Below are positions 5,601-63,448 of a stretch of 64,000 nucleotides of DNA, piece by piece; the first letter of the stretch is position 1; every line of letters starts with the position of its first letter. Under the pieces are notes generated by a model. It was not told where the DNA came from. It saw only the letters and a list, made by a program, of their open reading frames with translations, and searched no databases. Origin of the DNA: Owenia fusiformis. Its lineage: Eukaryota > Annelida > Polychaeta > Sabellida > Oweniidae. A program made the translations under genes and the position numbers. Location: positions 48,997,885 to 49,061,884 of the forward strand of contig CAIIXF020000001.1 of assembly GCA_903813345.2 (NCBI GenBank). The letters run 5' to 3'.

Positions 5601-8600
5601 TTCCCATTCTCTTCTCAATGCAACATGGAGAAACATAGAAAAGGACTCAGGCTTTTTATGTTGTATGACAAAGATGCTGTTTTATAAATAACATTTCGTC
5701 GTATGAGAATAATAATGTCCCAAGTGCCATTTTTGAAAAAAATTGAGATTCCACAGATTTCCACTATTTAAATCATCCTCTTTCTTACTGTGATATTCCC
5801 TTATCCTTATCTCCTCTCAAAAGCCTGCTTTTCAGTGTCAAATTGTCCTAACTCCATAAAAAATTAAAAAATACAATTTAACTTTGTTCTATACAATCAA
5901 ATTCTTTGAATTACACCATGTGACTTAAGAATTAATTATATTATAATTTTAAACTGAGATTTGAATTTATTATTGAAAAAACGAATAGAGAAATTTGTGT
6001 CCATTGAAAATACATAGCAAAATGGACATCTTTCGATGGTATGAAAAATTCGGAATTGGATTGTCCTATCTCCATTTTTAATATGCTCAAAAATTGGCTT
6101 AGAAGATCTTAAAATTCAAGAATATTTTAGTGTATATACACAAATATTTGATAAAAATAATGTACAATTTTCACAGATGACAGATAGATAGCATTGAAGT
6201 TACAGATGCCTAAACTTTCAAAAATTGATTTCTCAGTTTCACAAAAATGTGAGTTGGGACATTTTTATTCTCATAGGGCGATTTTCTGTTCTACGATTCT
6301 TAAAATCTAGTTATATGATCATACTGGTAATATCATATGCTGTTATATTTTATATATGAGACTGAGAATAAAAGTACTGCTTGAAAACATTAAAATAAAA
6401 AGCTACAGCATGAAAAGTGGATAAAATGCATGTTTTATAGGGTGTACTGACATTTTTAAAAGCTTCACTGACTACAGCTCGCATAGACAAAGTTGGTAGC
6501 ATAATAGATATATGGTTATGTTATTGTATTACTATGTCTCTTCATGCCTTAGGTTACCTTTTAAGAACTTAAAGCTGATTTTGGCTTTATCAGGAGCTAT
6601 CAGTTGAATTATAATAGGATTAAATTACTACTATTTTAATTTTTATTTTGATACTTGAACTATATTTCAATGTTACTGAAGAGTTTCTAAGGTGGAGAAC
6701 TTTCTTTAATTAAACCAGTTGAATCATTTAAAGTTTTTAAGTCAAATCAAAATCCTACACCTAATGAATTATGTTATATAAGTATACAACTGTACACATG
6801 TATGTGAAAATAAATTATTAGCAGTTTTTATTATTTCAATATTTTACTATATCATTCATTTCTAGAGTCTTCTAAAGTATTTTAGGACATATATTAAGAA
6901 TACACTTAAAATATGTAGGTTTGAAGATCAAATTCAAGATGGTTCATATTTACATGTAAGATAATGATACCATACAGTTATAAATCTCTCTTGAACCATT
7001 GTATTGTAAACAAGTAAGAATTATATTGTGTGAATATTTCTCAAATAGAAATATCCTCACTGGGTCATGTTGACATATGTATGGGAACTTGACCCTCTCT
7101 TGAAAATTCATTGAAATATTGAAAATAGTCTTAGTGTTAAACCTTTGCAGTTGTTTGATTTAGCTTTTTAAAAGATAGCTTCGTCTTCACTTTTTTAAGT
7201 TAAAGAGATACCTATGAACTTGCTGAACCAACCAGAGCTTGTCGAAAGAAAGACTCCTCGGTATCCCAAAAAATGAGCCACTTTCTGACAAGTGTTTTTT
7301 CAGCAAGAGATGAGCCAAATGGAATGAAAATTTTTACTGACTAACTTTTTTAAAATGTTTTTTTTCATGAAATGATTAAGTTACAAATGTACTTAAGTAG
7401 TATATTGTTCAACTTTCAAGGTAATAGCTTGATACATAGCCTTGATTAAAGCAAATAAACCTTCGCCACCAGAAGTTGAATAACTACGGTCGTTGTTGAA
7501 GGCATTGGTCATTGTACGGTACATAATAGGTTACCCCAACGTATGACGTCCAATTTGCTAAAAGATATGTTCTCTTTGCAGTTTTTGTTTCATGATGTTC
7601 AACCCAAACGCTTTTAAATCCACTCTGGAGCTTTTTATTCACCTTGAAACCTTCCTGAGCTTAATAAACTGGCGGGGAAAGAAGATTGCACAATGGCCAT
7701 ATATATTGTTTCACTAGCTTCTCTTACATGTCATACTTTAGCAAAACATATTATATACCGTTTCGATGACCAATGCGTTCAGCAAAGAACTTAGTTCTGG
7801 CGGTGCAGGGTTATTTGCTTTGATCAAACCTTTTTTATATCAAGCTATCACCTTGAAAATAGAACATTGTACTAAAATGCATTTGTAACTCAATCAATTC
7901 CTGAAAAACACATTTGTAACTCAATCAATTCCTGAAAAACACATTTGTAACTCAATCAATTCCTGAAAAACACATTTGTAACTCAATCAATTCCTGAAAA
8001 ACACATTTGTAACTCAATCAATTCCTGAAAAACACATTTGTACACCATCTTCAGAGAAGATGGAGGACCAATTGATCAATTTTTCTTTTGAACAATGATT
8101 GACGTCATATTGAAATTATCAGGAATAAGCGTTTTTTACCCATGCTTTTGATTTTGATCCCATTACCAGAAATTTTAAAGGATAAAACTGAAATTTCATT
8201 TTTATATTAGGGAGATATCAGGTGCCGAAGTACGACCCATTTTTTATGCCCACCCGGTATTGTCGTTTTCTTTGAAGTAATTATTATTTAAACATGTTTA
8301 TTTCTGCTTGTTGATTGGTTTAGAAAATGTCGGTGCTGTTGGTTTGAATTGATTTATGGCCCTAGGCTATGACAGCTACTAGTAGTATGGAGTAGTGGCG
8401 GGGCCACTGAACTGTAAATTCTCTTAACCATTACTTTACAACTAGCATCTATAGTCAGTTTACTTAGCTTCAATACTGCTACAGCTCAGAACCCTAGATA
8501 CTCGTTTGTTTAATTTTTCTTTGTATAAATATCAGTACCCTGCGTGCAGAGTCTAGTTAAACTACACTCTGCCTAGTAGAGACCATATTACAGTTAAGTA

Positions 8601-11600
8601 GCCCCGCCCCCACGACGGGTACCGGTGACAGTTTGGGTAATAATATAAATCACTTCTGACCTATGCGCTGACCTTTCTTCCACCATTCAGCGAGCCTGAA
8701 CAAACATACGCCAAATGCATTCTAATTAAATATGCGCATGTCATTGGTCAATTCCGTGCTCAACGATGACGTCAGAAGGAATGACCATATATAGAACGTC
8801 GGTCAAATTTGGCCGACGAACACTGATAGGCGCGGTGAGTTCACAGGTTTATTTTAGTTTGAAAGAGTGAAGACGAAGCTCTCTTTTAAGAAGTGAAGTC
8901 AAACGAATGCAAAGGGTAAAATATCAGATTCTTACATTACAAATGTATCATCATGGTATAATATGGCAATTTCTTTTTTTCTGCATAGGAAAAGGCCATG
9001 GCTCATAGTACTAAGTTATTATGAAAACTTGTTAAATGCTCGGGAAAGAACTTCTTGAGTGATGATTGTAGGTTATTTTATTAGAGCATCTTTCATTTGT
9101 AGGACAGAAAGATGTGATGTTTATGACAGGATGTAAATAATACATGTAAATATATACTTTTGTAGCCTCGTATATAATTTTTAAATTGATGAATTTTTAC
9201 TTTCAGTTGCTCCGTGGAGGAAAGTTACTCTAAGTTGCTGACGAAGCTTGCTAAAGTTGCCAATAACAACAGTCAGAATGGGTAGGTACAGCCTTATATT
9301 ATCTAATTATTTATCGGATTGATTTTTTACATAGAATTTTAGATGACTTTCAAATGGTTGTTATATATGTGGTGTGAAGTGGTGACATATTGTTATGTCC
9401 AACTTTTTTATGGACAGTTGGCGACTATAACAAATATAATGTGATAACATTTCACATATTAATGCCTTATTATCCCAACGAACGAAGTTCGTTAGGGATA
9501 TAGTGAAGCCCTCCGTCCGTCTGTCCGTCAGTCCATCAGTCAGTTAGTCCGTCCATCTGTCTGGAAGATAACTCAAATACTAGTTGACAGATTTTCTTCA
9601 TATTTAGTGGAAAGATGTATATTGGTAAATAGTTTTACACAAAAAAAAAAATTTTCAAGATGGCCGCCGCTTTAAAAATGACGGGACTTTTTCGCAAAAA
9701 TCATAAATTTTTCATTCTAAACCAAAGTAATTAATATTATTGTTTGAAATTTTGGTAGTGTATTCACAACATTTATCTATTTCACATATAATCTGTGTTT
9801 TTCATCCTGACCCCCAGGGGACATGTATGGGGGGACAGGAAAACAGAAATTTTCGCTAATTTTTAGATCTTTCTGAAGTATAGCTTTATTATACTCAAAT
9901 GAAAGGTAATTAAGAGTGGATTGCAAATATTGTATATTTTTTCTGATTCGAGCCTCGTAAAATTCAAAATGGCCGTCTAATGTACGATTTCGCAATAATT
10001 TTTCGATCCCTTCAAAGTATGGCTATATTATACTCAAATTGAAGGAATTTTGGAGTAGATCACAATTATGGTATTATTTTTCAGATTTGTACCTCAGAAA
10101 ATTCAAAATGGCTGCTTTGCAGGAATTCGCAATTCTAAAATCTAATTTTTTCATTTTCAACCAAAGTAATGAGTATAATTGATTGGAATTTGGTAATTGA
10201 TATTTTGTTCGTTGGGATTTGCTACTCCGCGGAGTTGCCGTTATCTAGTTGATGTTGTTTTGAACTGTGCCTATATCTGATACATTAAAAGTTTCTCATT
10301 CGGTAAAAAAAATAACAGCTAGTGGTTATAATGTTGAAAACAATCATGATTTATATGTTCGCAACAGTGATTATTAAATTGTCGAAAACAAATAAGAGAC
10401 CAGGATGTATCATCTGGATTTATAGCCTACTTTCCAATCTAGAAGAACATGTACTTTTTTCCGTTATATCAACTGTTATATAAATTTAATTATAAAGAAG
10501 TGTTCGGATATTAAGTTTCTGCAAATTGGCAATTTGATATTCAGTTTCATTAAATGGTGCAGTACAATTCTGTCTAAATGTTAACAATCAATAAGAGTTC
10601 CAAAAACAAATTATTATACCAATATTTTTTATGGCAGCAATAAACTATCATTTTTATAACATCTTATCTACTTCGTATATTAAGTGTAAATTAGATTAAG
10701 AAAACCTTTTTGTGCAAAAGTAATTTATAAGAGGATTAGACCTCATTTCCACCTCTTTTTGAAACCTTATTCACTATAACATTTTATTGACAGAATGTAG
10801 GCCCTCCAGCCTCACCTCCCTATTCTACTTAACCTCCCCCTAAGGTAGACCTGCATGATGATAATTTTTATGTAATTTTCAGATTAATTACTAATTATAA
10901 ATCAAAAAGTAAATTTTTCACATTTTTATGTAAATATTTACATTTTATGGTAGAATAAATGATTTGTCATCAAAATATCATAAAAAATGTAGAAATGAAA
11001 TTTCCCAGAAAATAATTTGTTCAATTTCTTTGTGAAATTACCTAAGCCTTGAAATATATTATTCTCTACAGTGATCTCCCAAGAACCTTTTCTCCTGGTA
11101 GGTGCAAAATTCTCATTTTCACAATTCAGACAAAAATTGGTCAAAATATGCCAATTTTTCATGATTTTCCTCATTTTCAAGTGGGTGCAAATGGATTTTC
11201 AGGTCGGTGCAAGCATATTTTCAAAATCTCAGGTGGGTGCTGCACCCACTTGCTTTAATGCTGGGGAGATCACTGCTCTATATACTGAATGTACTGCATC
11301 ATTGGTGAACGGTGAACAATCAGGCTGAAGATTTTGAAATTGAATTCATAACAGGGCTAGAAATTACCAGTTGTCTTATCGCTAATGACAGTCACTTTTC
11401 ACTTTTGGCAACCATGCTTAGAAATATTCCTTGCCTATTAAGCAATGGACTAATTGCCAGCATGGTAAATTGTGGCAAGAAAGTTTCAACCCTAGTGAAG
11501 AACCCTGATCCATGAACAACTGCATCATCTCTATGAACCTAATTTTATTCCTTATTTGCAGTTCATTTGCCTTATTTTGGCAGGTATTGAACCTAATTTT

Positions 11601-14600
11601 ATTCCTTATTTGCAGGTCATTTGCCCCATTTTGGCAGGTATTGAACCTAATTTTATTCCTTATTTGCAGGTCATTTGCCCCATTTTGGCACGTATTGAAC
11701 CTAATTTTATTCCTTATTTGCAGATCATTTGCCCCATTTTGGCAGGTATTGAACCTAATTTTATTCCTTATTTGCAGGTCATTTACCCCATTTTGGCAGG
11801 TATTGAACCTAATTTTATTCCTTATTTGCAGGTCATTTGCCTCATTTAGGCATGTATTGAACCTAATTTTATTCCTTATTTGCAGGTCATTTGCCCCATT
11901 TTGGCAGGTATTGAACCTAATTTTATTCCTTATTTGCAGGTCTTTTGCCCCATTTTGGCAGGTATTGAACCTAATTTTATTTCTTATTTGCAGGTCATTT
12001 GCCCCATTTTGGCAGGTATTGAAGGCCCTTGCAGAGAAGCTGTCCTCTCTACACATGCAGTTGATGCATTCATGGCAGGACCTCATCAAAGATGTACAGA
12101 AATACACAGAGGAACAACATAAGAAACATAAATCTGTGAGTACCATGTGTTAAATACTGTAAATACACTTATTTGGCTACTGGTTTTAATGACGGATTTG
12201 CAATTATTTTCCTAATGTGTAAGTATTCCTATTTGGATGTCAGTGCTATGGCAAGACTTACTGAAAGTAGAACACATGAATCTGAAATGCTTGTTTTCAG
12301 ATCAATGATAAAACTTGAGCTCAATCCTAACTCCGCCAAAGATAGCCGCCAATATTTGAGTCAAATTGAGTGTATCTACAGTACTATTTCAGTGCATTGA
12401 TTCAAGGTATATCGTCAACTGAGCAGAAACATTATTTAGAATCATATTTCGCCTTTTTGATTTCATAATGAACTAAACATTAAAAGAGGGATGTCTTCAT
12501 TGTGCATTATGATTTCATAAAGAATTGGACAATGTCATTTTTATTAAGGAGTGGTGGTATATTTGAAGTATTATTGAATAAAGAACCCTCATATCATTGT
12601 TTCTTGGATTTAAAAGCATTCATGAATGTACTAACCCATTTGCCCCATTTTGCAATGTAATGTTCTCGGACTGTGATCTAGTGCATGATGTGTTCTTTCA
12701 TCTGAAAGTAGTGAGTAGCAAAGACCAATTTTGGAAAAAATTGGTGTCCCTATTTTCCACAAATACGCCTTTTTTATGTATGTTTTAACTATTGTTTTCC
12801 ACCTACCATTGTGGGACTTTTGTCACATGTGCATATTTCCAGTGAAAGGTTACACTTAGAAATATTGCAACTTGGTTATTTTCCCATTTTGGAGAAAAAG
12901 GTTGATATCTTATCTCTAGAAATCCAAGGATTGGGTGCAAAATTCACATTCTCATAATTTTGACCGTATAGCATTTCTAAAGGGAAACTCCTTCTGTATT
13001 TATGAATCTAAAGAATGCTTACCAAAGTCTCTGGACCTGTGTTTGATACAGTTCAATGAACCTGCATGTTACATCATGGTAATTATCAGTGAGATTGAAG
13101 AGCAGAATAACATTGCCTGACTGTATACATTTGACATTGAGATTTATGTTCTCATCAAAAATTATCCAGATGGCATCAATATTTCAGCGTTTCATGAATA
13201 TTAAGGCAAGTTCTTACATATGAGGTTTTGTGTGTTATTTGGAGCATCAACATCATAGTTTGTTTTCATAATTCCATGCTCTATTTCCTTCTTATCTCAT
13301 GCACAGATCCCTCTCTACAATGAAGTAAGGCTAAAAATCGGTCTGTTTTGGACATTTCAAAACTTTGTTAAAAATGTAGCTGAATTTCTGCTTTTTAGGG
13401 CAAGGTATAGATTTCCTCAAAATTTAGTTATAAATATTTTAATGATTTTATATGTATAAGAGCGGGGGGGGGGGGGTCATCCCTTCTAAAGTCCAGATTC
13501 ACCCTTGCACACATGAAACACAACCCCCTTCTAAAAAGAAGCATTTTAGAAAGTGGCTAGGTTGGATTCTAGTACAGTGATGATTTGATAACATCAAACA
13601 TATTTATTCTAATCTGGTTATACATAAGGGATGGTGTCTGGCATGGTGCTGATACCATGTACAGTACAACCCGTTTAGAGTGAATGCTACTGGGATTGAG
13701 TAGAAGTGTTTACATTGCATTTACAGGTTGCCATAACATGGGAATCAATAGGACATTAAAAAATAAAATTGTTTACAATGGAAAAGTGTTTACATTTCAC
13801 AGTGTTCATTTTAGGGAGGTATTATTATACATGAGGGTGTTTACATATGCAGGTTTTAAAGTATATGTACAGTAATTCTCTATCGTTAAACTCAACTTGA
13901 TCATCTTGATCGTATCATCGCAACATGTAAATGTCATCACACCATGAAGTCTGCAAAACTTTGCATGCTGTAACTAATTGAACTTGTTAGTGTCCATGAT
14001 GGTTTTACTTCTTGTTTTCTTAGTTCTGATCTGAGGAATAGTATTTTAAAATTAGGGGTTGTTATTAATCTGTTGACTATTAAAAATTTTATTGTGATTT
14101 AGTAGTCAAAAGATTACTCCTTATTTTGTAATGACTATAGCAAAATATATTATAAATATTTTCGAATATTATATTAATTTTCAATCAAAAATCACAACTA
14201 CAACACAGTGAAATATTTAATTTGGCAGTATCTTGATTGATCCAAACCACAGTGTTGACTTACAACCTACCACTGATATATCTTACTGCTTTCATCTGAC
14301 TGTTACCTATGTACCTACCAGGCTTTACTACCATGTGACATAAAATCTCAACCAATCAGCATTGAGCTTTTCCAGTTGAATTTGGAAGAATATGGGTAAT
14401 AAATTTCATTCATTGATTTGTTGGGCAAGGTACATGATCAAATCAAGCATCTGTATCTGGAAGAACGAAGTTTCTGATTTTGGAGATCAATAACTTTGAT
14501 GGAGTCCAGCTGTTTCAGATTTGGTTAACAAGCTTCATATTATTATTTTTATTGATCAACATATTAAGTTAAGGAGTTTATTATGTAGAATGGTAATAGT

Positions 14601-17600
14601 TTCTGGAGTAAGATGAACTGTTGATATGGTCAGTCTAATATGCATAGTACATGATAACATGGTTGATTCAGTTATGTGCCACTAAATTATGAAAAAAGGA
14701 ATTTTATCCTATGCCAAGTAGAGTTTTAGGGAGATAAGCTGGTAAGATATATCCCGTATCCTGATTTTGAGGTTTCCATATCCAGAACCTCCATATCTCC
14801 CGCCATATCTCCCACTTCGGTGCATATCTTCCCGCTTCCGGTGCATATCTTCCCGCTTCCGGTAATGCAATAAAATGACTTTGCATATGAATGATTTGTT
14901 TATTTTTACACCTTGTACTATTGAAATGGCCATATGCCCCTGAAAACTCAACTTGGTCCGTCCGTCCGTACGTCCGTCCGTCCGTCTGTCCGTCCGTCCG
15001 GGCAATAACTCAAATACCGTTGGCCCGATTTTGTTCATATTTTGTACACATATACCCTATGGGGGTAGAAGTTCTGCTCGAAAGCCGATTTTCAAAATGG
15101 CCGCTCATTTCAAAATGGCGGCCATTTTAGTGCCGATTTTACAGTAATTTTGGTGCAATATGTAAAACTGTAATAGCAATATGTTTTAAATGTCAAAAAT
15201 TTTTAAAGGACATTAATAGTGCTACAAATGTAGATATTAAAGAAGCACATGGCAGCCATCTTGAAAAATGGCCGCCTTTACTCGTCATTTTACGATTTTT
15301 GCTGTAACTCAAAAAATAGTGGAGCGATTTTGTTCATATTTGGTATGTGAATACTATAAGCGTTGCACACTGTCTAAAGACACTTTTGGTAGAAGGCGGC
15401 CATTTTGAAAAATGGCCGCCATTTTGACGTATTTTACTATAACTCGAAAAGTAGTGGAGCGATTTTGTTCATATTTGGTATGTGAATACTATAAGCATGG
15501 CACACTGTCCTATGACACTTTGAGTAGAAGGTGGCCATTTTGAAAAAAAATTGAAAAATGGCCGCCATTTTAACATATTTTACTATAACTCCAAAAGTAG
15601 TGGAGCGATTTTGTTCATATTTGGTATGTGAATACTATAAGCATGGCACACTGTCCTATGACACTTTGGGTACAAGGCAGCCATTTTGAAAAAAAATTGA
15701 AAAATGGCCGCCATTTTAACGTATTTTACTATAACTCGAAAAGTAGTGGAGCGATTTTGTTCATATTTGGTATGTGAATACTATAAGCATGGCACACTAT
15801 GACACTTTTGGTAGAAGGCGGCCATTTTGAAATATTTTTTTTATAAGCATAAGCATGGCACACTGTCTATTTCTAATGACACTTTTGGTAGAAGGTGGCC
15901 ATTTTGAAAAATGGCCGCCATTTTAACATTTTTTACTATGACTCGAAAAGTAGTAGAGCAATTTTGTTCATATTTGATATGTGAATACTTTAAGCATGGC
16001 ACATTGTCTAATAAAACTTTGGGGAGTAGTCGGCCATTTTGAAAAATGGCCACCATTTTTATGTGTGTTATTTAACAAGTACGTGTGCGATTTTTCAAAA
16101 ATTTTAGAGGTGGCTACTTAAAAGCATATTATTTCTTCTGATGACAACTTGGCTAGTGAGCAACCATTTTGAAAATGGTGGCCTTTCTGGTGTGTTGTTT
16201 TATGATATTTGCTATTCGTTTGTAAAAATGCCTGCCATTTCTGTTCGATGGGATTCGCTACGCTTTGGCGTTGCCGTTGTTCTGGTTAGAAAATGCTCCC
16301 AGTTTAAAAGGAATCTCACACAAGTTCAGGAAGGCGTTTTGATAATTCACAATATTGGTCTCAATATTGGTTTATCATGATGTTAAATACCACATTTTCA
16401 CAATATACAGACTCATGTGAGCTTACCAAATCATTTCATCCTATAATAGTTTGTCTCTTCTTTTTCTAGTTCCATCCCTGGCCTATACATCAAAATGATT
16501 GTGTTGATGAAATGCATTTATTCATATGTGGAAACAACATCCATACTTTATGTTATAATCAATGCACTCTAATAGAAACTTGTTATTATAAATATGCAAG
16601 AGATCTTGGACACTTCTATTCATGGGGGGATAATATTATTATGTAAACTGTAAACTTTGCCATGTTTGATTTATGGGTTCTTAGTCAGTGAAAAGTAATA
16701 TATAAGAATAATGTTAATCATTTATGATATAAATCGGCATTAATCATATGTAATTGTGCAATAAAACAATTGTTGATAAGGGTGAAAAATGAAAAAGACA
16801 CTTTTGAGTCAATCATAAAGCTTTCAGCCTGGTTGTGAGTTTTTCCGAAACATTAACCTTACTGTTATTTATTGTTTAGGTGAAGGAATCTGAATCCAGT
16901 ACAATAGAAACAGTGCAATCCATACAAACAACCACAGTTGCTTTACAAAAAGTAAGTAGTGTTTTATTTAGAGAAAGATCCCTCAACTGGAAATATTTTA
17001 AAAATCTAATCCACTCATAAATGGATATTAGCTAATGGCAGACATGACACATATCCTATTGTCGCATGAAAAAGGATTTGAAGATCTGATTTGACAAAGC
17101 CAATTAACATCATAACCTCATTATTCTTGAAATATTTTTGTAATCTATTTTGGCAAAGGCAGTTAATATTATAACCTCTATTCTCAACATTATATTTTTC
17201 AGGCTAAAGACTTGTACCACACCAGGAGTATAGAGTACGAGAAGTTAAAACGGGATAACGCATCTGCTAAAGAAGTAGAAAAAGCAGAAGTAAAGTGCAA
17301 AAAAGCAGGTATGATTCCCCATTTCTGTATTTTTGTATTTTATATAAAAAGCTTATAGACATGAGACTGTTATGGTAGATTATGGATCAAACAGAGAGAA
17401 GGCTTATATGTCATTGATTAAATTGATTTTGACATTTCAATTTAGGGCTTAACTAAATAGCTTCATTTCTCATTCAAGTAACCTTGAAATATCACTAATT
17501 TGTAATGATATGTAACTTACACAATCAAACCTTCATTTCTTTGATTATCAAACATAATATTGAAGCTTAAAAAATTCATCAAAAAGAATATGAATTAATT

Positions 17601-20600
17601 GCCTTTTGAAATTGAAAAAGATGCAAGTAGTTTATTCTATGTAAAGCTTTTATATTTACAGAGAAGAGTTATGTCCTTGTCTATTGATTCTGCAAGTTAC
17701 AAAACATTTTAGAGTTATTTTAGAGCCATTGGCCCTTTAATTAATGATTATGAAATATGAAACACTTAGTTTGTGGTCTTTAGAAAGTCTAATTGAGTAC
17801 CACGATGTTGAGTAAATGTAATTAAATGGCAATGGTGAGACTTTGATTAGAGGAAGTAGATAAGGGAGGGGATCAACTTTCATTATTCCCAATCACACTA
17901 GGTTTACTTATTACTGATAATGTCATTTACCTGCAGATGTTTTGATATGGTTTTCAGTTAAGATTTTTGTTATTCTATTTTGTCATTTGTTTTTCAGGTG
18001 ATGACTATAAAGGTCTAGTGGAAAAATACAATAATATTAGGAATGATTTTGAAACAAAAATATTTGACGCATGTAATGTAAGTTGTTGTTTACATTGAAA
18101 AGCATTCACATTTGTCATACAAATATATAAGGAAATGTCAGATGTATTTAGAAATTGATACTATTCCCAAGAGAATCCACTTCATCTGCACTCTTTAAAT
18201 TGCAGATAATTTTTTCATCTTGTGTGTCATCAATCTGATCTTTTTGTACAGTACATGTAGTCAAAAATCACTGCACTACATTGATTTTACTTATTAGTAA
18301 AAGATTTACATATAGTTAAAATTTGTTCCACATTAATCTCATGCAGGGGATTAAAGGCGTTCAGCATCTGTAAGAAATACAACAAATGGCAGGTAGTGCC
18401 ATTTTTCATGTTCATGTTGTTGAAAAATTGCTTCGATCTCACCTTATGGCTTTATTTTCAGAAATTCCAAGAGATTGAAACAATGCACATACAGCAGATG
18501 AAGAGCTTTTTAGCCACATATGCAAAGGGTTGGGAGGGGGGCCATACACTCATAGGCCAAGTACATGAAACATTTAGGAACAGTTTAGATGAACTCAATG
18601 AGGAAAAGTTATTAGAAACATTTGTTGAGAATAAAAAGACTGGTGCTGAGAAACCAGGTAAAGAAAATTTATTTTTGTAAATTATGCAAATTTTATATTT
18701 TTGGACAACACAAATGTTCTCATTTGTGATATTTATAATATGAAATATTTTATAAAGTTCATTATGGTTTTGAAAACATATTTCAATATTTTTCATTTAT
18801 GTAAAACTAAAATCAGAAATATTTTTAGTGAAAGATTTCTAGAAATAGATTGTTCTCATTAGTACTGTGTGGAGTTATTTATTGGCAACCATCCAGGCTA
18901 CAAACACATTGACATAACCTTTGACCTCTACGCAGATAGCTTACTATCTATCGATGTGTACTTTGATTTGTATTAAAATAAAACTGCATATTGGCAATTT
19001 CACATATGTAGTGTTTTATTTAAGGTTTAATACAGTTTGAGGAACCTGACTTGTCTTCATTGCCAGCTGCAACATCAAGTACCTCGCTAGAAAGCCAAGA
19101 TAAAGCTCCAGTAGACAAACCTAAACCTCTAAGTCTCGGTAAGTTGAACAGACCCTTTTTAGCAAAATTTTAATATTTTCTTCTTTTTGTTAATTTCTCG
19201 TAATGTTTCTTTCTACACTTGCTCAAATGATTTGGTAATGGTGTATCTTTTGTATTTTTATCTTATTCTTAATTTTTTTATGAAATAAACAGTGAATTTA
19301 GTAATGCTTTATTTTTAACTCTTATGCATGAATAATTACATCTGTATATGCATGAGGAAAAGGGATTATATATCCTCAATCTGTTTTGGGGAATGCACCT
19401 CCTTTCTCCTCACTAGGTGTTAAAGGGAAACCTTAAAGGAATTAGAAGTGATAGAGAGTTTAAAGTGTTGGAAGCAATCTTCAAAAGGAATGCCAATTTT
19501 TAAATGACAATTCTGATCTCATTTTTTTTAACTGAGAATTTAGATATTAAATATATAGAAGTTTTTGATGATTTTAGATTCAGAAATGTCCAAATTCAGT
19601 ACTCTTTTTAAAACATGCAAGATAACCCACAAAATCACAGTGTTATCCTAAAATAAATTAAGAAATTATGGACATTTTAGAAACTAGGCATAGCATGGAA
19701 TGATGACTCCAAAACATATAAACTAGTAATTATTTTTTTGCCGAACTAATTCTCAACTTGTCTCTATCCCTTCTAGTCCCATTTATGTCATCTATTTCTG
19801 CATGTTGCACTGTTGTAGGTGTTGGTGACATGTCTTTTGGCAATTCAACATATCACATGCCTCCTATAATACGTGGCAGTCCAGTATCAAGCCCAAAAAC
19901 CAAGCGAACAACCACATGGGGAAGTCCCAAAGGATCGCCTAAATCTCAGAAATCGGGGCAACACTCTCACGACAAAGCGCCATCTGGCGTTAGTCACAGA
20001 ACCAGCCCAGTTCTATCAAAACTCACTGATCCCTTTGGTGCGCTGACTCTAAGGGGCTCAAAGTGTAAAAAATGTTGATGTTGCTTTGTTAAATTGTTTG
20101 ATATTATAGGATAATTACTGCTTTTTGGAGGAAGATCAGCATCCTGTGTACAGACTGTTCTGTTGCAGAATATATTGCTTTCCCAAGATAAGGCAGTCGT
20201 AATTATTTCTAGATAATGATTATTTAATAATTGTAAGAATATTTAGGATGTTATGAGAAGTGTTTGACCAGTTTGTATAAAATGAGTATTCATTGTGACC
20301 AGAGATTACTGCTTCCACAGAATTCAACAACATGTTTTGATTACATCTGAATGAATATACATTTGCAAACTATGAGATTTCTATGCAAATCAGAAACTGG
20401 AGATCTGTGTAATTTAATTCCTCGATCTAAATGATTGCTAAATACATACAAATAAAAAGATTGACAAATACAATTTTGAAAAGAAAAATCCTGAAACTCT
20501 TTGAAACTGCTTTCTTTATTAGCCTCTGTATACATGTATAAGTACCTTTTATTAATCAAGTAGATTCATTTTTCTTGTATGCTTTTGCTTAACATTATTT

Positions 20601-23600
20601 TACTTCTTTCTTGTTGGTATGGAAAGATTGTGAACATGGGAAGGGGCACTTGGTGCAAGACTTAGGTTGAAGCTGTTTTTCTAATATTGTTTGAATTTTA
20701 TATTACATGTATTGCTATATCATAGCGTTGTATTTTAATATTACATTACACTTACAATTAAAATTACACATCTCTTGTACATTTGATATTCACATTATTT
20801 TATAGCATAAAACACTTTTATGTATTAAGCTGATATTAATTATGTGTTAAAAAGCATAATCTGTTTGGAGTCTTATATCTTGTAATTCTTCAGGAGGGTC
20901 ATGCATATGCACTAATAATCTGTCATTGCCACATGTACTAATACTGTCTTGTCATTGTCATTGTAGGAGCTATTACATACATTCCAGGGTTTAAGAAGAA
21001 GAAAGATAAGCGTGACAAGAAGAAGAAGAAAGACAAGAAGAAAGGAAAAGATCAGGTGGAGCAAGAAGAGAGGAAAACTCCAGAAGTTGATGAAGATGGT
21101 TTCTCTATCAGACCAGAGAATCCTTTGGGAGACAAGGATGGCAATAGCTGGTACTCAAGTTCAGATTCAGACTCAGGTAATACAGGGTGATCCAAAAATG
21201 CAACACCCTATTTTTGGAATATATTTCTTGTGTAAATAAAAAAAACGGAGTGAACAGTGGTATATTCATGTTGCATCTTCAACTTTGAGACAAGGATGGC
21301 AATAGCTGGTACTCAAGTTCAGATTCAGACTTAGGTAATACAGGGTGATACAAAAATGCACCATTTAGTTTTGGAATACATTATTTGTGTAAATAGAGTG
21401 AACAGTGGTATATTCATATTGCATCTTCAACTTTGATATATAGAGAAATTTTGTTTTCTGTCAAGCCTCGTATTATATTAGTTTCACCCAAAGCTAGTGA
21501 TTCTATATCCCTCTCAGACCAATCAGAATACAGTACAATCATGCTGTATAGCAAAAGAGCATGGTTACTAAAGAAAAACTAATAAGTGGTCAAAAGCTCA
21601 TGGTTTAAGGGTTGAAAATGAAACCCTAGTGTATTAAATCACTCATAAAGCATATAGAGACCTGGGTATATGTTTATGTTGTACTAATGTATGAGAATCT
21701 CATCTACAAATATGAAAAATACTTGTATCATGTAAATGCTTTTACTTTAGATGGGGAAGAAAAGAAGAAAATTAAAGTTGAAATCAAACCAGTGAACTCC
21801 ACTGCACCAGTTGCCACTGGCAACGTGGATGACATCAGAATATCTGTAGGATCTCTACGTTTATCACCCACACATACGGTAGGAAACAAAGGCTTTGCTT
21901 CACAATTATGAGGAAATCACTTAGGGCACTTAGAAACAAAGTGTCCCCACTTGTTGACTGAATTAGATTTCTTACATTTAGTGCTGCATTAAACTGATAA
22001 GTTAAATATTCCAAGAAGAAGGGGTCTACATGTATATTTATAGAACAAGGTGTTTTGTACATAAAGCAAAATATAATAACTTTGTTGTTATGAGATTGCA
22101 TTTTATTGTCTTTTGCAACCCAATTAGATCAAATAACAATACAAATTAAAGAAGCAAATCTTTTATTCTTAGTTTCCTTCACCAAAAACTATTTTTTACA
22201 ATCAAAACCACTCAATAACATTGTATGCAGTTATTAGCATTTCATATTATAAGTTTATATCTGTCTTTGAAATGGCAACATGTAGCTATTCGAGTGCTTA
22301 CATGCATGTTGGTGAACTAGAATTTGATTTCAGAAAAAGCCAATGAAGACAAATAACTCAGATGCCAATATGAAGAGGTCACAGTCCGTTTCAGATACTC
22401 TAGGGTATGTATTCTGCTTGAATAGTTGTAATATGAGTCTGTACAGGACTTTCAAATGTATAACACCCAGATGCAGGTTATCATTATTTATTATGTCTTG
22501 ACAATGAAGTGTAGAAACCTAAGATCTGTTTAATTTCTAAAATTTTTTTTCATTGCTGTACATCAATTAAGAGATCAATATTGTTCTATGCATAAGTGTG
22601 AAAGCATTTGAACTGTATTGTATTGGCATAATAATTATTTTTTAATTTATTTAATTTTTAGGAATTCCAAGATGCCAAGTCAGGATCTACTAGGTTTGGA
22701 TCTATTTGGTTTGTCTTCAAGTGCTTCCACACCTACTGGGACTACCTATACATTCCCCTCACCCAACAACTCCTTACATAATGACACAACTAGCAATACA
22801 AGTCGTGACAACACCCCCTCTTCTAGTAAGTTCATCCTCACCCAGCTTACCCAGGGGTCAGTTTCTCCGCGCATCAAGGATCCACAAATCAGTTGTTTGT
22901 TTGCTTTAATTCTGAGAAAGAACAATTGATTTGTGGAATGGACGTTTTACAATGTTTGGAGTTTACCCCAGCACTTTAGCTAAAGGTTTAAGGCCAGCTA
23001 GTCAAAATAATATTATGGACCAATTTCAATGCAATTTTTCTGATCTCATGAAAATATCTTCTCATGAATATTGTGAGTTATGCATTGTAAAATTCAGCTG
23101 TCTTTTACAACATTGCCTCAGTTACTGTAAGACAATTGATTTTTTATGAATTCTAATTCACGGCACAATACTTTTGAGGGATGGACTGTGATTATCTGAT
23201 TGGCCTTTAGCTAGAGCCTAAATGTTGCTTGTTACACACTCTTGTGTCTCTAAGCCTTCCTATCCAGGGGTCAACTTGTCACAGTGGACAGTTGTAAAAA
23301 ACAATCCATAGTATAAGTATCAATAGTTAAAATTCAATCTCATCATATATTCAAGTTTTCCTCAATGTAATACAGTTAAACTCGTGAGAGTGGCATCCCC
23401 TTGGTTCAGCTAAAAGTGTTGGACTAAGGAAGTGTTCAACTTATATAACAGACTGAAAAAGTTTTTACAAAAGTGTTCCACTTGTAGAGGTGTTCCACTT
23501 GACAGGGTTTACTGTATGTGGCATGCTTCCTACCTTATATAATAAGATTTAGAATAAGCACATGTATATAAATGCTTGCACTTGTTTTGTCACCATGGAT

Positions 23601-29600: not shown

Positions 29601-30823
29601 CATCCCCAAGGGTGATAGACTATGAATTAGACTGTGTCTAGACTACATCTAGACTGCAAATATCCATCCACATTCAAAATATTCTAGACTACAAATCATT
29701 GCAAAGTTTGAATTTATTCTTTGATAATCGTTAAACCATACATTTTAGCCACCATTTACAATTTAGTAATGGAGTCCTAATATACCATGTCACATGATTA
29801 CTCCTCTCCAATCAGGTATGATTACACCATAATTAAGGATTACACTTGTGTAAATGAAGGATCATGGGAATTAGACATGTCCTTAGTGAGTCAGATGATT
29901 AATTCTAACGAATAAGTAATTGCAAGCACAATCCCTTTGAATTTCTTTAACATTTTGCTGTGTGACTTTTGGGTTGTCCAGATCACAGATCATTAATATT
30001 ATACATGTATGAATGGTTTTAATCAATTAAAAGTAGTAGTGTTGGGTACAAAAGAGACATAAAAGAATTCTAAAGGCCAAGATGAAACGGCTTCAAAATT
30101 TATATTTTAGATGTGTATTGTGTAATGACATTATCATGGTACCATAAACAATATCCATATCCATTATTTCAGTCATGTGTATATACATTAAAATCTATAT
30201 GGTACCTCATAATAGTGTTCTACTCAGAAGGTGTTCCTCGTATTGAGGTTCAATTTATGCTAAGTTAATGTGTAACAGGACTATTCATATAAAAACTTGA
30301 TCTTTATTTGTCCTACTCAAAGGGTGATGATATTCCAATAACCTCATTTCAGCGGACAACATAGTGAGATTTGCCCCAATGGCTGAAATGAGGTTATTCA
30401 TATTTCAACCACCTATTGAAAACTAGGTACAAACTTATAATTCACCATTGACTTGATCATGGCAGAAAATGACAACTATGGCCCTTCATTAGACTCCATC
30501 TATTGCTCAAGTCAGTAAAGTTTTACATCTTAAGTAAACCTTCTAAACTAGGTACAAACTTATAATTCACCATTGACTTGATCATGGCAGAAAATGACAA
30601 CTATGGCCCTTCATTAGACTCCATCTATTGCTCAAGTCAGTAAAGTTTTACATCTTAAGTAAACCTTCTAAACTAGTACTTATAGCCTGAGAACAGACCT
30701 TGCAAGGTGGTGATAATTACTTTAACCCACTGGGTCACCCATCAATGCTAACTTAGGGTATTACATTTATGTCTTCCAGGTAGATACCTTGTAGAGACAG
30801 ATGCAGATGTCAGATATGTGTAG
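2689..30823 (+). CDS. FCHO2: FCHO1/2 F-BAR and mu-homology domain endocytic protein (5' partial)
   Basis: Clathrin-coat pioneer of the muniscin family: it binds PI(4,5)P2 membrane through an F-BAR dimer and recruits AP-2 and cargo adaptors at the plasma membrane. Coding exons (all phases agree): 2689-2780, 9207-9281, 11994-12135, 16880-16951, 17203-17308, 17998-18077, 18462-18657, 19025-19138, 20967-21176, 21751-21878, 22334-22404, 22662-22825, 24095-24261, 24518-24659, 24852-24930, 25729-25884, 26359-26491, 26771-26970, 27329-27558, 30780-30823 (TAG). Together 866 residues. Residues 1-254 are F-BAR ([18 protein letters not shown] near the start, IGQVHETF near its end). About 255-586 is a low-complexity linker with YSSSDSDS and SRGPSP, conserved in vertebrate FCHO proteins. 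About 587-866 is the mu-homology domain ([21 protein letters not shown]). The initiator exon is not in the window. Whether it is FCHO1 or FCHO2 cannot be told; invertebrates usually have one gene. Confidence 0.95.
3408..5034. mobile_element. Non-autonomous element with TGTCCCCACC termini and internal about 170-bp units
   Basis: The left end reads TGTCCCCACC and the right end GGTGGGGACA, a 10-bp terminal inverted repeat. The left part has a CCGTCCGTATGTCCGTC-type microsatellite. The body is at least five diverged copies of a unit containing TTTCAGGGATGATTCTTAG and GGCAGCCATTTTGGATT. Reading frames through the CCGTCC part (Ser-Val-Cys-Pro repeats) are not genes. It lies in the first visible FCHO intron. 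Confidence 0.65.
5130..5281. mobile_element. Diverged copy of the GGTGCAAATGG MITE family
   Basis: It shares CAAGTGGGTGCAAATGGA, TTTTCAAAATCTCA and a terminal GATCATTGCTCT-like end with the intact copy at 11069-11275. It is degraded at the left end. Confidence 0.55.
5698..6284. mobile_element. MITE-like inverted-repeat element
   Basis: The ends are inverted copies: TATGAGAATAATAATGTCCC on the left and GGGACATTTTTATTCTCATA on the right, about 35 bp with few mismatches. The roughly 585-bp interior is AT-rich and non-coding. It is in an FCHO intron. Confidence 0.6.
7366..8042. repeat. Foldback element with a 31-bp tandem expansion in one arm
   Basis: The left arm (about 7366-7520) and right arm (about 7755-7910) are diverged reverse complements: CTTGATTAAAGCAAATAA against TTATTTGCTTTGATCAA, and AAGTTACAAATGT against ACATTTGTAACT. 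The outer end of the right arm is amplified into about five copies of a 31-bp unit (ACATTTGTAACTCAATCAAT followed by TCCTGAAAAAC) at 7879-8042. It is in an FCHO intron. Confidence 0.7.
8740..8840 (+). promoter_or_regulatory. Possible internal promoter and non-coding first exon in FCHO intron
   Basis: In order: an inverted CCAAT box (CATTGGTCAA near 8741), a perfect CRE (TGACGTCA, 8767-8774), a TATA-like CATATATAG (8787-8795) and a consensus splice donor GTGAGT at 8835. The spacing fits a start near 8820 and a tiny untranslated exon ending at 8834, 370 bp before the exon at 9207. It might drive a shortened FCHO transcript. It could equally be chance or a transposon promoter. Confidence 0.3.
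9472..10250 (+). mobile_element. Non-autonomous repeat, TCCCAACGAA family
   Basis: It starts TCCCAACGAACGAAGTTCG, has CCGTCCGTCTGTCC, then diverged units with 'CAAAATGGCCG' blocks, and ends TTGGGATTTGCTACTCCG. The same head and tail occur at 14930, 28171, 58914 and, reversed, at 41262 and 60917. No transposase is encoded. It lies in FCHO intron. Confidence 0.7.
11069..11275. mobile_element. 207-bp hAT-like MITE
   Basis: Terminal inverted repeats CAGTGATCTCCC / GGGAGATCACTG are flanked by the direct repeat CTCTA (11064-11068 and 11276-11280). A 5-bp target duplication fits the hAT5 type. Relatives are at 5130-5281 and 54290-54479. Frames through it are not genes. Confidence 0.75.
11536..12021 (+). 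repeat. Nine 54-bp tandem copies of an FCHO intron/exon border
   Basis: Each 54-bp unit holds a pyrimidine-rich acceptor (CCTTATTTGCAG), 22 bases of exon start and a donor-like CAG/GTATTG. The last unit runs into the true exon at 11994-12135. Acceptor AGs end at 11561, 11615, 11669, 11723, 11777, 11831, 11885, 11939 and 11993. Because 54 is a multiple of three and the units contain no stop in this frame, the array is open in frame with the FCHO exon, adding 18 hydrophobic residues per unit if retained. Confidence 0.9.
14930..16290 (+). mobile_element. Non-autonomous repeat of the TCCCAACGAA family, expanded copy
   Basis: It has a CCGTCCGTCCGTACGTCC head, about six units of roughly 150 bp (GTAGTGGAGCGATTTTGTTC, then GGCCATTTTGAAAAATGGCC) at about 15290-16070, and the tail GATGGGATTCGCTACGC. 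It is in an FCHO intron. Frames through it are repeat shadows. Confidence 0.7.
19777..20078 (+). CDS. FCHO2: Candidate alternative 3' terminal exon of FCHO (short isoform)
   Basis: After the exon ending at 19138 (phase 1), two acceptors, at 19776 (pyrimidine-rich) and 19818, both keep the frame. They open an exon that stays coding to a TGA at 20076-20078. From 19819 the tail is 85 residues: Ser/Pro/Lys/Thr-rich with repeated SP/TSP and GSP motifs, ending in Cys-Lys-Lys-Cys. The product would be the F-BAR domain plus a short tail, lacking the mu-homology domain. AATAAA at 20451-20456 could end this transcript. Codon use and stop-free length look genuine, but there is no family precedent I can name and no transcript evidence. 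It could also be a cassette exon that introduces a stop. Confidence 0.55.
21129..21434 (+). repeat. Tandem duplication of an FCHO exon end plus its donor
   Basis: Copy 1 (21129-21296) covers the last 48 bases of the exon 20967-21176 and intron beyond it. Copy 2 (21297 to about 21434) repeats it with substitutions and a deletion. Copy 2 carries a second GTAATA donor but no acceptor of its own, and reading from copy 1 hits TGA at once. A mariner-type TACAGGGTGATCC end starts 4 bases inside the intron in both copies. Confidence 0.85.
23368..23517. mobile_element. Tc1/mariner- or pogo-like MITE, copy 1
   Basis: The ends are TACAGTTAAACTCGTG and CAGGGTTTACTGTA, with GTGTTCCACTTG-type repeats inside. 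It is the same family as 40087-40264 and 40411-40588. It lies in FCHO intron. Confidence 0.6.
24272..24425. repeat. 28-29 bp minisatellite
   Basis: About five to six copies of TTTGATATTATAGTAGCCCT with GACAGAGC-like joints, just inside the intron after the exon ending at 24261. Confidence 0.85.
28171..28872 (+). mobile_element. Non-autonomous repeat, TCCCAACGAA family
   Basis: It begins ATCCCAACAAAGAAAGTTCG, has CCGTCTGTCTG and four diverged units with GATAACTCAAATACC and CAAAATGGCCACC, and ends GGGATTTGCTACTCCGTGG. It is in the last FCHO intron. Confidence 0.7.
29457..29547. repeat. Short inverted repeat
   Basis: CATCCTCCAAACACAGGGGTC and GACCCCTGCATTTGGAGGATG form an imperfect 21-bp stem around a loop of about 45 bases in the last FCHO intron. 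Confidence 0.6.
30337..30400. repeat. 18-bp stem hairpin
   Basis: AATAACCTCATTTCAGC and GCTGAAATGAGGTTATT are perfect reverse complements about 30 bases apart, in the last FCHO intron. Confidence 0.75.
30419..30674. repeat. 125-bp tandem duplication
   Basis: Two nearly identical copies of a unit starting AACTAGGTACAAACTTATAA, with the second ending about 100 bases before the last FCHO exon. The near-identity suggests a recent event. Confidence 0.9.
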
Positions 30824-33608: not shown

Positions 33609-35585
33609 CGAGGGGTGATCCAAGTCTTGGACATCCCGCTCTAACTTTGCTATTTTTTAATGAAATTACACGAAACTTTCAAAAAATAAAGATTAACATC
33701 TTAACAGCGTTGTGTAGAAGTTTCACTAGAAAATAATTTATTTTAGGTTCTTTTCTAGATATTTTTTAATATGGGGACCCTGCCACCCGGAACGCAAATC
33801 ACGTCACAACTGTTAATATGGCAAATAGTTTAGGTGCAGGTGAACAACCTCCCACCAGTCATTATACAAGAGCATTTTCAGAATTTGCAATCTGAATGTC
33901 ATCTGCCATCAAGAGAATCTTTCGATTTTGCAATCTGAGTGTCATCTGCCATCATCATCTCCACATATTTAGGCCTACTTTTCAACATACTTTCCATGAA
34001 TTTCGACACATTTTTCGTGGCGCTTTACCCATGAATGGAAGACATTCATGAAACCACCCTTGCTCATGTGACACAAACGCTCCTGGACTGCCACTTTAAC
34101 CTCATCCAATGAGTGAAAAACATTTCCTTTCAACTCTTCTTTCAACTTGGGAAAAAGAAAAAAAAAACACGGGGCCAAATCTGGACTATATGGTGCGTGT
34201 TGTAGCTGTTCAAGTTCGTTGATTGCAAGAATATCTTGCACAACCATGGAGCGATGGGATGGTGCGTTATCCATGTGTAGGATACGGCTGGCGGGATGTT
34301 CTACACTGTTGCGCTTTTTACACAAGGCAACTCTCAGATGTTTTTGCAGAACCTGCAAGAACATCAAAAAGGAACTTCAATTATTTTGTTTGGCCTTGTT
34401 GGACTAAGGTATGTGTGTAGGTATAACAATGATCAAAGATTTAATGGATCATTGCCTGATTTTCCTACCTGTTTGAAATATTCCCCATTGACAGTCTGGT
34501 CTTCAGGCACAAAGTGGGTCAGGATGGGACCTTTGTAGTCAAGGAAAGTTATAATCATAACCTTATCTGCAGAGCGTCCTCTTATGGCTTTCTCTGGCCG
34601 ATCCTCAAAGGGGTAGATGTACTGTGAGGACTGTTGATTTGTCTCTGGATCACTATAATAAATCCATGATTCGTCTGTAGTAATGATGCGTTTAAGAAAC
34701 TCTTCTCCTTCTCGTCTGTACCTTTTGAGAAATGCCTCACTCAAGTCAACTCTTCTTTGCTTCTGCTCATTACTTAAAAGTTTGGGAATCCATTTGGCAC
34801 ATACTCTCTTCATCTGAAGGTCAAATTTAACAATGCGCTGTACGCTGCCATATGGTATATCTAGGATGCTGCTTATTTCTCTGATAGTCAATCTACGATT
34901 AGAGTCTAACAATGATTTGACAGCTCGAATATTATGTGGTGTTCTTGTGTCTACAGGCCTGCCTGATCTGGGTTGATCCAATACATTTTCATTACCAGAA
35001 TTGAAGTGTTCATACCATCTATACACACTTTGTCTTGATAAAGCTCTGTCCCCATGGGTGCTTCTCAATAATTCATACACTTCTTGATGTGGCTTATTTG
35101 TAGCAACCATAAACTCGATTACAATTCTTTGTTTCACTTTAATTTCTTGCATGTTCTGCATTTCAGCAGCCATCTTGGAGCAAAAATGATACCACAATGA
35201 GGCTTACATGTCTGATGTCATTTTCCATTGTCCTATGTGACATCACAGTTAAAACACAATTAATTGGTTGCTTGGCAACAAAGAAAGAAAACTAACATGG
35301 TTTAACATTCAAAATTCAAAGAAAAATAGTGGTCAAGTTTAGCGAAACTAGTCAAAAACTGGCAATATTTAAGGCTGAAATTGCCATTTTCAAATACCGT
35401 TCCGGGTGGCAGGGTCCCTATATCAAAAACTGTCTTGAAAAATACATAAAATAAATTTTTTCTCCATGAAATTAATACACAAAGTAGTTCGATTATTGGT
35501 CTTTATTATTGGAAAGTTTGAAATAATTTCATGTAAAAACAACAAAATTAGAGCAGGGCGTCCAAGACTTTTGGATCACCCCTCG
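33609..35585 (-). mobile_element. Mariner transposon
   Basis: Terminal inverted repeats of about 40 bp start CGAGGGGTGATCCAA at both ends (one 2-base indel) and are flanked by TA (33607-33608 and 35586-35587). It encodes one transposase on the minus strand. The right end lies 17 bases beyond the PUSL1 stop codon, in the same orientation as that gene. TIR similarity and the open frame suggest a young insertion. Confidence 0.95.
33975..35197 (-). CDS. Mariner transposase, two exons, third catalytic Asp missing
   Basis: Cut-and-paste DDE transposase. The first reading frame runs 35197-34469 and the second 34352-33975. The 116 bases between start GTAGGA and end CTTTTTGATGTTCTTGCAG and remove exactly in phase, giving 368 residues (360 from the second Met at 35173, close to the roughly 345 usual). 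Order: N-terminal paired helix-turn-helix (RQSVYRWYEHF), GRP linker (QPRSGRP), WIPKLL, first Asp in ITTDESW, second Asp in HMDNAPSHRS, then YSPDLAPC where D,D34D enzymes have Asp. Here that position is Phe (PCFFFLFP), so the enzyme should be inactive. The alternative reading is a pseudogene with an insertion frameshift; the neat GT-AG borders favour an intron. Confidence 0.85.
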
Positions 35586-61401: not shown

Positions 61402-63448
61402 TTATGTCTCTGACGTGACCCTCAGAAGCTGCTTGTTAACAGGACCTGCATCCCCACCTGATCCTCCATATGGAGTTCTCACTGTGAAGTCAATATCTTC
61501 TGAATTAAGCAGTTTACCATCATCCCCTGTGCTAGGCACCCTGGTATAGCTTGCGGCACTTCCTGTCTTGTGACCATTCTTTAACTGTAAGAGTGAATGT
61601 AACAACAATCAATAAGAAAATGAATTGTTACACAGGTAATAAATATTTTTTATCATGGTAACTTTTGAGGTGACTAGAATGCAAAATGGCACCATTAAGG
61701 TGGGCTCTCATGGTGATTCCTTATACAAATTTTTATCAAAAGTTCAAGATTGGAAAACTAGGTCAAATTGCAAATGTAGGTCAATATACAAATATATCAT
61801 GGATAAGTATGACCCATATAGTTCAACTGAATAACTGAATATGATTTCAAATGAGCTATTATTCCTTAATGAAGGCACTAAAGCCTGTTGTGTGTTTTAC
61901 TTCATTGATATAAGTTTTGAACTATTTCACAGTTTAAATCAAATAAATAATTAAAAATCCATTCACTTACATTTCCTAAAGGATGAGCTTCGTCATCTAA
62001 ATCAAAGTTTTCTATACTGAAGATTCTTGCTATTTCATCAAATGTTTTATTCTTAGTTTCTGGACAGAACTTGAAGATAAATATCCCGAATCCTACCAAC
62101 ATGCCTATGAATATCAGGAATGAGTAAGGCCCAATGCCTTTCTAAAACATACAAAAAAGAGAACATATAAACAATGGAATACACAAACAAGGGAGTGTTA
62201 CAACAATGGAAAACACAAACAAGGGAGTGTTACAACAATGGAATACACAAACAAGGGAGTGTTACAACAATGGAATACACAAACAAGGGAGTGTTACAAC
62301 AATGGAATACACAAACAAGGGAGCATTCCATAAAAGATCTAGAGTATCAAGCCGATTTACATTCATGAAGTATTCACAGAGTGGGCTAAAAAATGTCAAT
62401 TCTTTTCATTTTGTTGCAACATTTTGGCAATGCATTTTCAATAATATTTCTGCAGGGGATGCTCCAATTAATTACACTTGATCCTATTAAGGCATAAGCA
62501 TATCTCTAGCTTATTTGAATGAGAATTAAAGTACAATAGACAATATGGCTGTGAACGCAAACTTCCAGTTTCAAGTTAAATCTGTGATGTTTATGTTTAC
62601 AATTTTACAGTGGTTTTAGGTATGCATATTGGAACCTGATGGATATCAAGTTTTATTAGGAACTTCAAAAACAATGGAGATCAATGCCTATTAAAATAAC
62701 AGCATCTTGGAATAGAAAACTCAAGTTTACTTACTTCAATAAATGGATAACCAATGCCTACTGAAGTGTTAGCCAGCCAGTTGAGTAAACCAGCAAATGA
62801 CATAGCTGCAGGTCGTGGGCCTTGACGGAACAATTCTGAGCCAATGAATTGAGGTATAGAACCTACAACATGGGATATAAGAACACATTTAAAAAAGTTA
62901 AGGATGTACATTCATGTAGGATTTAGGAATGTAACCAATATATGTATTTGCAGTGTTTATGATTTCCCAATGAGGTGTAAAATTTCCATTTTACCTATTC
63001 CGAACCAAATGTCCAATTCAAATCGGAATACCAAATATATTTTGTCAATTAATTATTTTGTGAAATTGGCTTTATAACAGATTCTGCTCTGGTACATTTT
63101 TGAGTCTCACAGTTTTCTAAATAATCAAATTCATGCAACAAATACAAGGAATTTACATAAGATGAAATTGAATGCATGAAATTGAATGCATTCGGCCTTT
63201 TCCATGCGATTTTCTTTATAAGCTAGGCATCAATTAACAGAAAGAAAAAAAATTAACATAAAATCCTTACCTAAACCAATAGCGAAGCCAATTACAAAGG
63301 TATGCATACAGGCTATAGAAACATAGGCCATTGCAGGCACAGAGTCCTGAAGTAACAGGGCAACAGTGATAAGGGAAGCAGAGACTGTCATCAAACCCAT
63401 TCCCACCAGCAAGAGAGGACGTCGACCACAGCGCTCCATTAATGGTAC
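61402..63448 (-). CDS. SLC2A (GLUT) facilitative sugar transporter, C-terminal part
   Basis: Twelve-helix major facilitator for hexoses. Four exons on the minus strand: 63448-63271, 62862-62735, 62141-61971, 61584-61402 (TAA at 61404-61402), 219 residues, phases consistent. The gene continues beyond the window edge. Seen: the cytoplasmic loop motif [16 protein letters not shown] before helix 9; the helix 10 region with [17 protein letters not shown]; and [15 protein letters not shown] after helix 12. The last exon adds a hydrophilic 60-residue tail. The helix 10 segment reads GLGSIPQF where GLUT1-4 have GPGPIPWF, so the tryptophan that takes part in inhibitor binding in GLUT1 is Gln. The class within SLC2A cannot be settled. 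Confidence 0.93.
62172..62330. repeat. 32-bp minisatellite
   Basis: Five near-identical copies of AACAATGGAATACACAAACA + AGGGAGTGTTAC in the intron between SLC2A exons 62862-62735 and 62141-61971. Open frames through it are repeat shadows. Confidence 0.95.

Follow-up and report, generated by a model that had tools for sequence, protein, structure and literature searches.

Nine tandem copies of a splice acceptor in an FCHO gene: a probable mirage-type minisatellite

The 64,000-nucleotide stretch of Owenia fusiformis DNA analyzed here (the window; G+C content, 34%) contains an FCHO gene, which probably encodes a membrane-bending protein and functions in endocytosis, and the acceptor of exon 4 of this gene is the last of nine tandem copies of a 54-bp unit. 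Our results suggest, with good though not complete assurance, that this array is a minisatellite of the mirage type that is removed together with a 2.7-kb intron, the last copy being the main acceptor and the upstream copies mostly silent. Along with the intron, eight nearly identical surplus splice signals would probably be excised. Mirages were described in lancelets as repeats of intron ends and exon starts (PMC3087553).

Results

The FCHO exons were found by tblastn with a human FCHO2 sequence, and their boundaries were set by hand. The resulting model comprises 19 exons and 18 GT-AG introns ranging in length from 192 to 6426 nt; the first exon and the last are not included, and the gene may have additional exons, e.g., within 19139-20966. 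A stretch at 19722-20075 (forward strand), open for 118 codons and with many S, P and K residues, lies there in a modelled 1828-nt intron and is possibly an exon absent from the model. Spliced without any insert, the model is open over 852 codons and matches the Pfam families FCH (PF00611; 3.5e-14), GMIP-like_FCH (PF22699; 7.2e-27), and muHD (PF10291; 2.9e-56). These matches and the alignment to FCHO2 reveal the N-terminal F-BAR/FCH domain and the C-terminal mu-homology domain that together mark the FCHO (muniscin) family. Residues 1 to 255 align without a gap to human FCHO2 (2v0o; E, 3.2e-77). As it is the model with the last unit only that aligns gap-free, position 11994 is likely to be the authentic start of exon 4, with an acceptor AG at 11992-11993 in the last unit and a donor from 12136; the joint between exons 3 and 4 reads QNG-SFAPFW here versus QLG-TFAPVW in FCHO2. 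An earlier note on this DNA, prepared without database searches, had placed the acceptor at 11993 and the exon at 11994-12135, an assignment that is borne out by the gap-free alignment over 255 residues. The introns beside exon 4 are long (2712 nt upstream and 4744 nt downstream). The features in question are as follows:

2689-27558, forward strand: FCHO (muniscin) gene, 19 exons modelled, with F-BAR/FCH and muHD domains
9207-9281, forward strand: FCHO exon 3, with donor GG/GTAGGT, joining exon 4 in frame
11534-11537, forward strand: TGAA at the left array edge, microhomology partner of 12020-12023, with CCTAAT following
11535-12020, forward strand: nine units of 54 bp, in each of which a branch-like CTAAT and a pyrimidine tract precede GCAG and the opening bases of exon 4
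11535-11966, forward strand: the eight upstream acceptor units, with possible exon starts at 11562, 11616, 11670, 11724, 11778, 11832, 11886, and 11940
11994-12135, forward strand: likely authentic FCHO exon 4, 142 nt, part of the F-BAR domain, as judged from the gap-free FCHO2 alignment and the acceptor score
12020-12023, forward strand: TGAA at the right array edge, inside exon 4, with GGCCC after 12023
16880-16951, forward strand: FCHO exon 5

Tandem Repeats Finder (TRF) reports 9.1 copies of the 54-bp unit at 11534-12023, with 95% matches and 0% indels, and the units are in register with starts at 11535 + 54k. Each unit has the layout (TGAA)CCTAATTTTATTCCTTATTTGCAG - GTCATTTGCCCCATTTTGGCAG - GTAT, made up of 24 intron bases, TGAA, and 22 to 30 bases from the start of exon 4, and hence crosses the exon-intron boundary in the manner of a mirage. 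The splice signals typical of mirages, which in the published cases are carried by many though not all copies, are also present: all nine units have an acceptor AG, which in seven is followed immediately by GT, and CAG/GT likewise occurs in seven. The A of the CTAAT in copy 9 lies 20 nt before the exon start, and the same bases occur in all nine units. The 24-base acceptor stretch has nine matches in the window within 3 mismatches (eight exact and one with a single mismatch) and is absent from 100 of 100 shuffles, so that the nine acceptor and exon-start copies of 54 bp recognized in the earlier note are upheld; there were no exact matches to this motif in the viral_contigs collection. That note was correct as to the location of the array, whose true start at 11534/11535 is one or two bases before the 11536 it gave, and as to repetition of the exon start. 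The repeated exon stretch is, however, 30 bases (11994-12023) and not the 22 it proposed, because exon 4 itself reads on as CAG-GTATTGAA and continues GTATTGAAG; a donor-like CAG/GTATTG coding Q-V-L is thus found within exon 4 itself.

Other properties of the array region were also examined. An ATG at 11512 opens a frame across the nine units into exon 4 (11512-12135), which, were translation to start at this ATG, would put a hydrophobic repeat peptide before a truncated F-BAR domain; the read-through frame of the array has no Pfam match. The opposite strand is free of stops for 243 codons (11421-12149, reverse strand) as a consequence of the 54-bp period. Predicted RNA folding of 11500-12140 was no better than that of shuffles (z, 0.45; 11 of the 20 shuffles did as well), and an Rfam scan of 9000-13000 gave no family at gathering score; these two results provide no sign of stems hiding the upstream acceptors.

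The strength of the acceptors was assessed with a matrix built from the 18 other FCHO acceptors, and donors were assessed with a matrix from the 19 real FCHO sites; both derive from one gene and are rough. The authentic acceptor in copy 9 scores 15.05, the highest of the 19 modelled FCHO acceptors, while units 1 to 8 score 11.17, 14.08, 14.08, 12.49, 14.08, 14.08, 14.08, and 14.08, respectively. The 18 other acceptors, left out one by one, range from -1.11 to 13.85, so that six upstream units score above all of them. Among the 130 AGs in 9283-12136, the top eight are all array units, followed by an AG before 10085 (11.92), unit 1, and an AG before 10883 (10.57).

Whichever of the nine acceptors is chosen, the frame stays open between exon 2 and the final modelled exon, each extra unit adding 54 nt (18 residues); with acceptors 1 to 8, exon 4 would be 574, 520, 466, 412, 358, 304, 250, or 196 nt long. 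The unit peptide of 18 residues has a mean Kyte-Doolittle hydropathy of 1.46. The earlier prediction that upstream acceptors keep the frame and add 18 hydrophobic residues per unit without a stop is therefore confirmed. From this it might be argued that the array is a length-variable protein module, with regular use of the upstream acceptors adding 18n hydrophobic residues to the F-BAR domain. The strong scores of the eight frame-preserving acceptors and the hydrophobicity of the unit peptide fit such a module, and of the intron modifications that boundary repeats have caused in human segmental duplications, 66% are also represented by a transcript whose exon retains the repeat (PMC2812944). 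However, the conserved protein is the form without the insert, and a greasy insert would be expected to harm a helical domain. The differences among the units also fail to support a protein module. There are 11, each confined to one unit (units 2 and 7 do not differ from each other). Read in the FCHO frame, 8 of them are nonsynonymous and 3 silent, compared to 118 amino acid changes, 35 silent changes, and 9 stops among all 162 possible single changes of the unit. The probability that 11 random changes would include no stop is 0.53, and hence an open frame is expected by chance. The amino acid effect of the differences is what drift gives. We therefore regard the module suggested in the earlier note as unlikely.

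The placing of these differences is less easily accommodated. The one difference of copy 9 from the consensus, a C-to-T change in the pyrimidine tract, raises the T content of this tract. In the eight upstream units, all 10 differences are at unit positions 28 to 49, i.e., in the 22-nt exon part, with none in the 32-nt GT-AG part. The probability of this placing is 1.3e-4 if changes are even and independent. It becomes 0.0005 to 0.0024 when G/C bases are given a 3- to 100-fold higher mutation rate, and 0.002 to 0.015 when the differences are counted as seven distinct positions. A run test without a preset boundary gave P values of 0.002 (substitutions) and 0.016 (distinct positions) for the eight upstream units. 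Such a distribution would be anticipated if the upstream acceptors were kept by selection, either as decoys or as a U2AF/U2 platform tuning the splicing of the long intron 3, an explanation that we also consider improbable. The placing test was devised after the pattern had been seen and on one sequence only, and the run test on all nine units gave P values of 0.09 (substitutions) and 0.22 (distinct positions). Among nine other repeats of the window, six had enough differences for the run test, and one of these six (at 36631) clusters similarly (P values of 0.025 and 0.006). Clustering in the exon part is hence a weak lead with weak statistics and not proof of selection. Neither of the two functions put forward in the earlier note finds support. 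A more elaborate proposal is that selection preserves the 32-nt block of GT, branch, tract, and AG while the mini-exon part drifts, the array being an adjustable platform for acceptor recognition or a copy-number dial for isoforms longer by 18n residues; we hold this to be a little less probable again.

A further possibility is that the array consists of micro-exons or nascent introns, with 22-nt exons between 32-nt GT-CTAAT-AG introns, resembling intron gain by AGGT duplication. The sequence GTATTG...GCAG between neighbouring units does form a complete GT-AG stretch, and intron gain from boundary repeats has been proposed for lancelet mirages (PMC3087553) and shown for a potato gene (PMC4974935). 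The donor-like CAG/GTATTG scores 4.85, above the weak donor of exon 4 itself (3.77, with a single FCHO donor, at 1.69, weaker still) and above 3 of the 19 FCHO donors in all. However, 16 of the 19 donors surpass this score, and copies 3 (CAC; score, -0.44) and 6 (CAT; score, 1.57) carry damaged versions of the site, such that 7 of 9 units, and not every unit as had been claimed, end in this motif. Moreover, the same donor-like site sits inside exon 4, and 32 nt is far under the 192-nt minimum of the 18 modelled introns. Single 22-nt micro-exons shift the frame in 8 of 8 units tried one at a time, as the earlier note held. With n micro-exons nearest to exon 4 there is a stop within exons 2 to 5 when n is 1, 2, 4, 5, 7, or 8 and no stop when n is 3 or 6, so that the frame is kept when micro-exons are taken in threes. 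Altogether, the mini-exon alternative is not supported and seems to us highly improbable.

An assembly artefact or a wrong copy number must also be considered, as one lancelet mirage was aberrantly assembled in a genome draft (PMC3087553, supplement). The 11 single-unit differences make most of the copies distinct, and the ends of the array fit the gene exactly; we judge this source of error to be very unlikely.

The FCHO gene contains a second duplication that spans an exon boundary:

21129-21436, forward strand: duplication of approximately 158 bp that spans the donor of an FCHO exon ending at 21176, with copies at 21129-21286 and 21287-21436

These copies are identical in 140 of 160 aligned columns, 10 columns being gaps; there is one difference in the 48 exon-derived bases, while the other differences and all gaps are in the intron-derived part. 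Use of the second donor would result in a stop.

Targeting of splice sites by repeats was not indicated. Repeats are abundant in the window, for which TRF lists 45 rows, some overlapping. A spanning repeat within 3 kb was found for 2 of the 38 FCHO splice boundaries, as against 28 of 300 random positions across the window and 34 of 300 drawn from the FCHO span. With such a rate, no special mechanism is needed. This lack of targeting is neutral for our interpretation of the array, which it neither helps nor hurts.

Several other features of the window were observed. Two tandem repeats, at 7880-8042 (31 bp, 5.3 copies) and 30420-30676 (125 bp, 2.1 copies), are perfect (100% matches), suggestive of recent expansion in other parts of the window. 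A Mariner/Mos1-type transposase is present at 33978-35203 (reverse strand) as two separate open stretches with matches to PF01359 and HTH_48, DDE_3 being below its cut-off; no relative of it was confirmed in the bacterial collection genome_contigs (16 pattern matches) or in viral_contigs (3 pattern matches). At 61905-63448 (reverse strand), three exon-like stretches match consecutive segments of a sugar transporter (PF00083) and are ordered as they would be in a single gene.

Discussion

Our favoured explanation is that the array is an intronic minisatellite of the mirage type. As TGAA is found at both edges, the simplest origin would be slippage between two TGAA words that were one unit (54 bp) apart in an ancestor and by chance enclosed the acceptor of exon 4. 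The tandem repeat may then have grown by replication slippage or unequal exchange, and its copy number is likely to be unstable; one lancelet mirage gene has 6 and 3 units in two haplotypes (PMC3087553). The array would lie in the intron and be removed along with it. Since the flanking introns are long, sites would be expected to pair across the exon, and the spliceosome would mainly pair the exon 4 donor at 12136 with the AG at 11993 in the terminal copy, this copy being preferred because a real exon follows the last copy only. The upstream copies, strong acceptors in themselves, would be mostly silent, while their occasional use would yield an in-frame FCHO protein with 18n extra hydrophobic residues. 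The nine units without indels and the TGAA at both edges support this explanation, as do the open, gap-free model obtained without an insert and the top acceptor score and T-richer tract of copy 9; the second boundary duplication in FCHO also counts as support.

Choice among competing acceptors has been surveyed in human genes, with acceptors at least 20 nt apart being taken to compete at first recognition (PMC9225289). In this survey upstream acceptors were preferred overall, the preference was significantly reduced between long introns, and the authors concluded that between long introns the advantage passes to the sites lying nearest to each other across the exon. These data suggest that the last unit is the main site and that some upstream use is possible. 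Several considerations nevertheless weigh against our explanation. The overall human preference is for upstream 3' sites and is only reduced with long introns (PMC9225289); with eight strong competitors, some use of upstream acceptors is plausible. The weakness of the exon 4 donor may make pairing across the exon less firm than assumed. Finally, the complete lack of upstream differences in the 32-nt GT-AG part is not predicted for an idle repeat.

The array is a clean natural test of the choice between nearly equal 3' splice sites, with nine copies that have few base differences, are all in frame, and lie between long introns. As the unit is exactly 18 codons, a wrong choice of acceptor still yields a protein. 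If the host is not a lancelet, mirages would reach outside the group for which the term was coined. Among the matches listed in literature searches, none dealt with a repeat of this type in FCHO, which is weak evidence of absence.

This kind of repeat is already known from lancelet genes, and FCHO adds to a short list of boundary minisatellites. The lancelet units are 150 to 160 bp in globin and 10 to 72 bp in Adh3, and in BflGb9 the 3' exon boundary is duplicated with 157 bp (PMC3087553); the approximately 158-bp second duplication in FCHO is comparable in size. Beside Adh and globin, mirage genes include troponin C and PGBD5 (PMC3902484). According to the authors of the lancelet studies, splicing is undisturbed by mirages (PMC3087553, PMC3902484). 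Reverse transcription-PCR of lancelet mirages suggests regular splicing, although the authors allow for use of the signals as cryptic sites (PMC3087553). As in these genes, the FCHO array has many copies with AG/GT signals and an authentic boundary beside the real exon (PMC3087553, PMC3902484); it differs in having nine acceptor copies, a unit of exactly 18 codons, and a frame that survives any choice of acceptor, and in the gene concerned, FCHO. In IFI6, a minisatellite likewise multiplies a splice signal, with two downstream units reported as used (PMC4526556), but the signals there are donors, whereas those in FCHO are acceptors recognized from sequence. In the potato RdRp gene, as in FCHO, an intron-exon boundary was duplicated together with its branch site, tract, and acceptor. 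A single duplication gave rise to a functional new intron there (PMC4974935), whereas none is evident among the 32-nt stretches between the FCHO units. Minisatellites at boundaries in human segmental duplications can also alter splicing, the repeats creating new introns or remaining in the exon with transcript support (PMC2812944), in contrast to the FCHO array as read from genomic DNA. Of the explanations considered, the lancelet mirage class fits the FCHO array better than a protein module or mini-exons.

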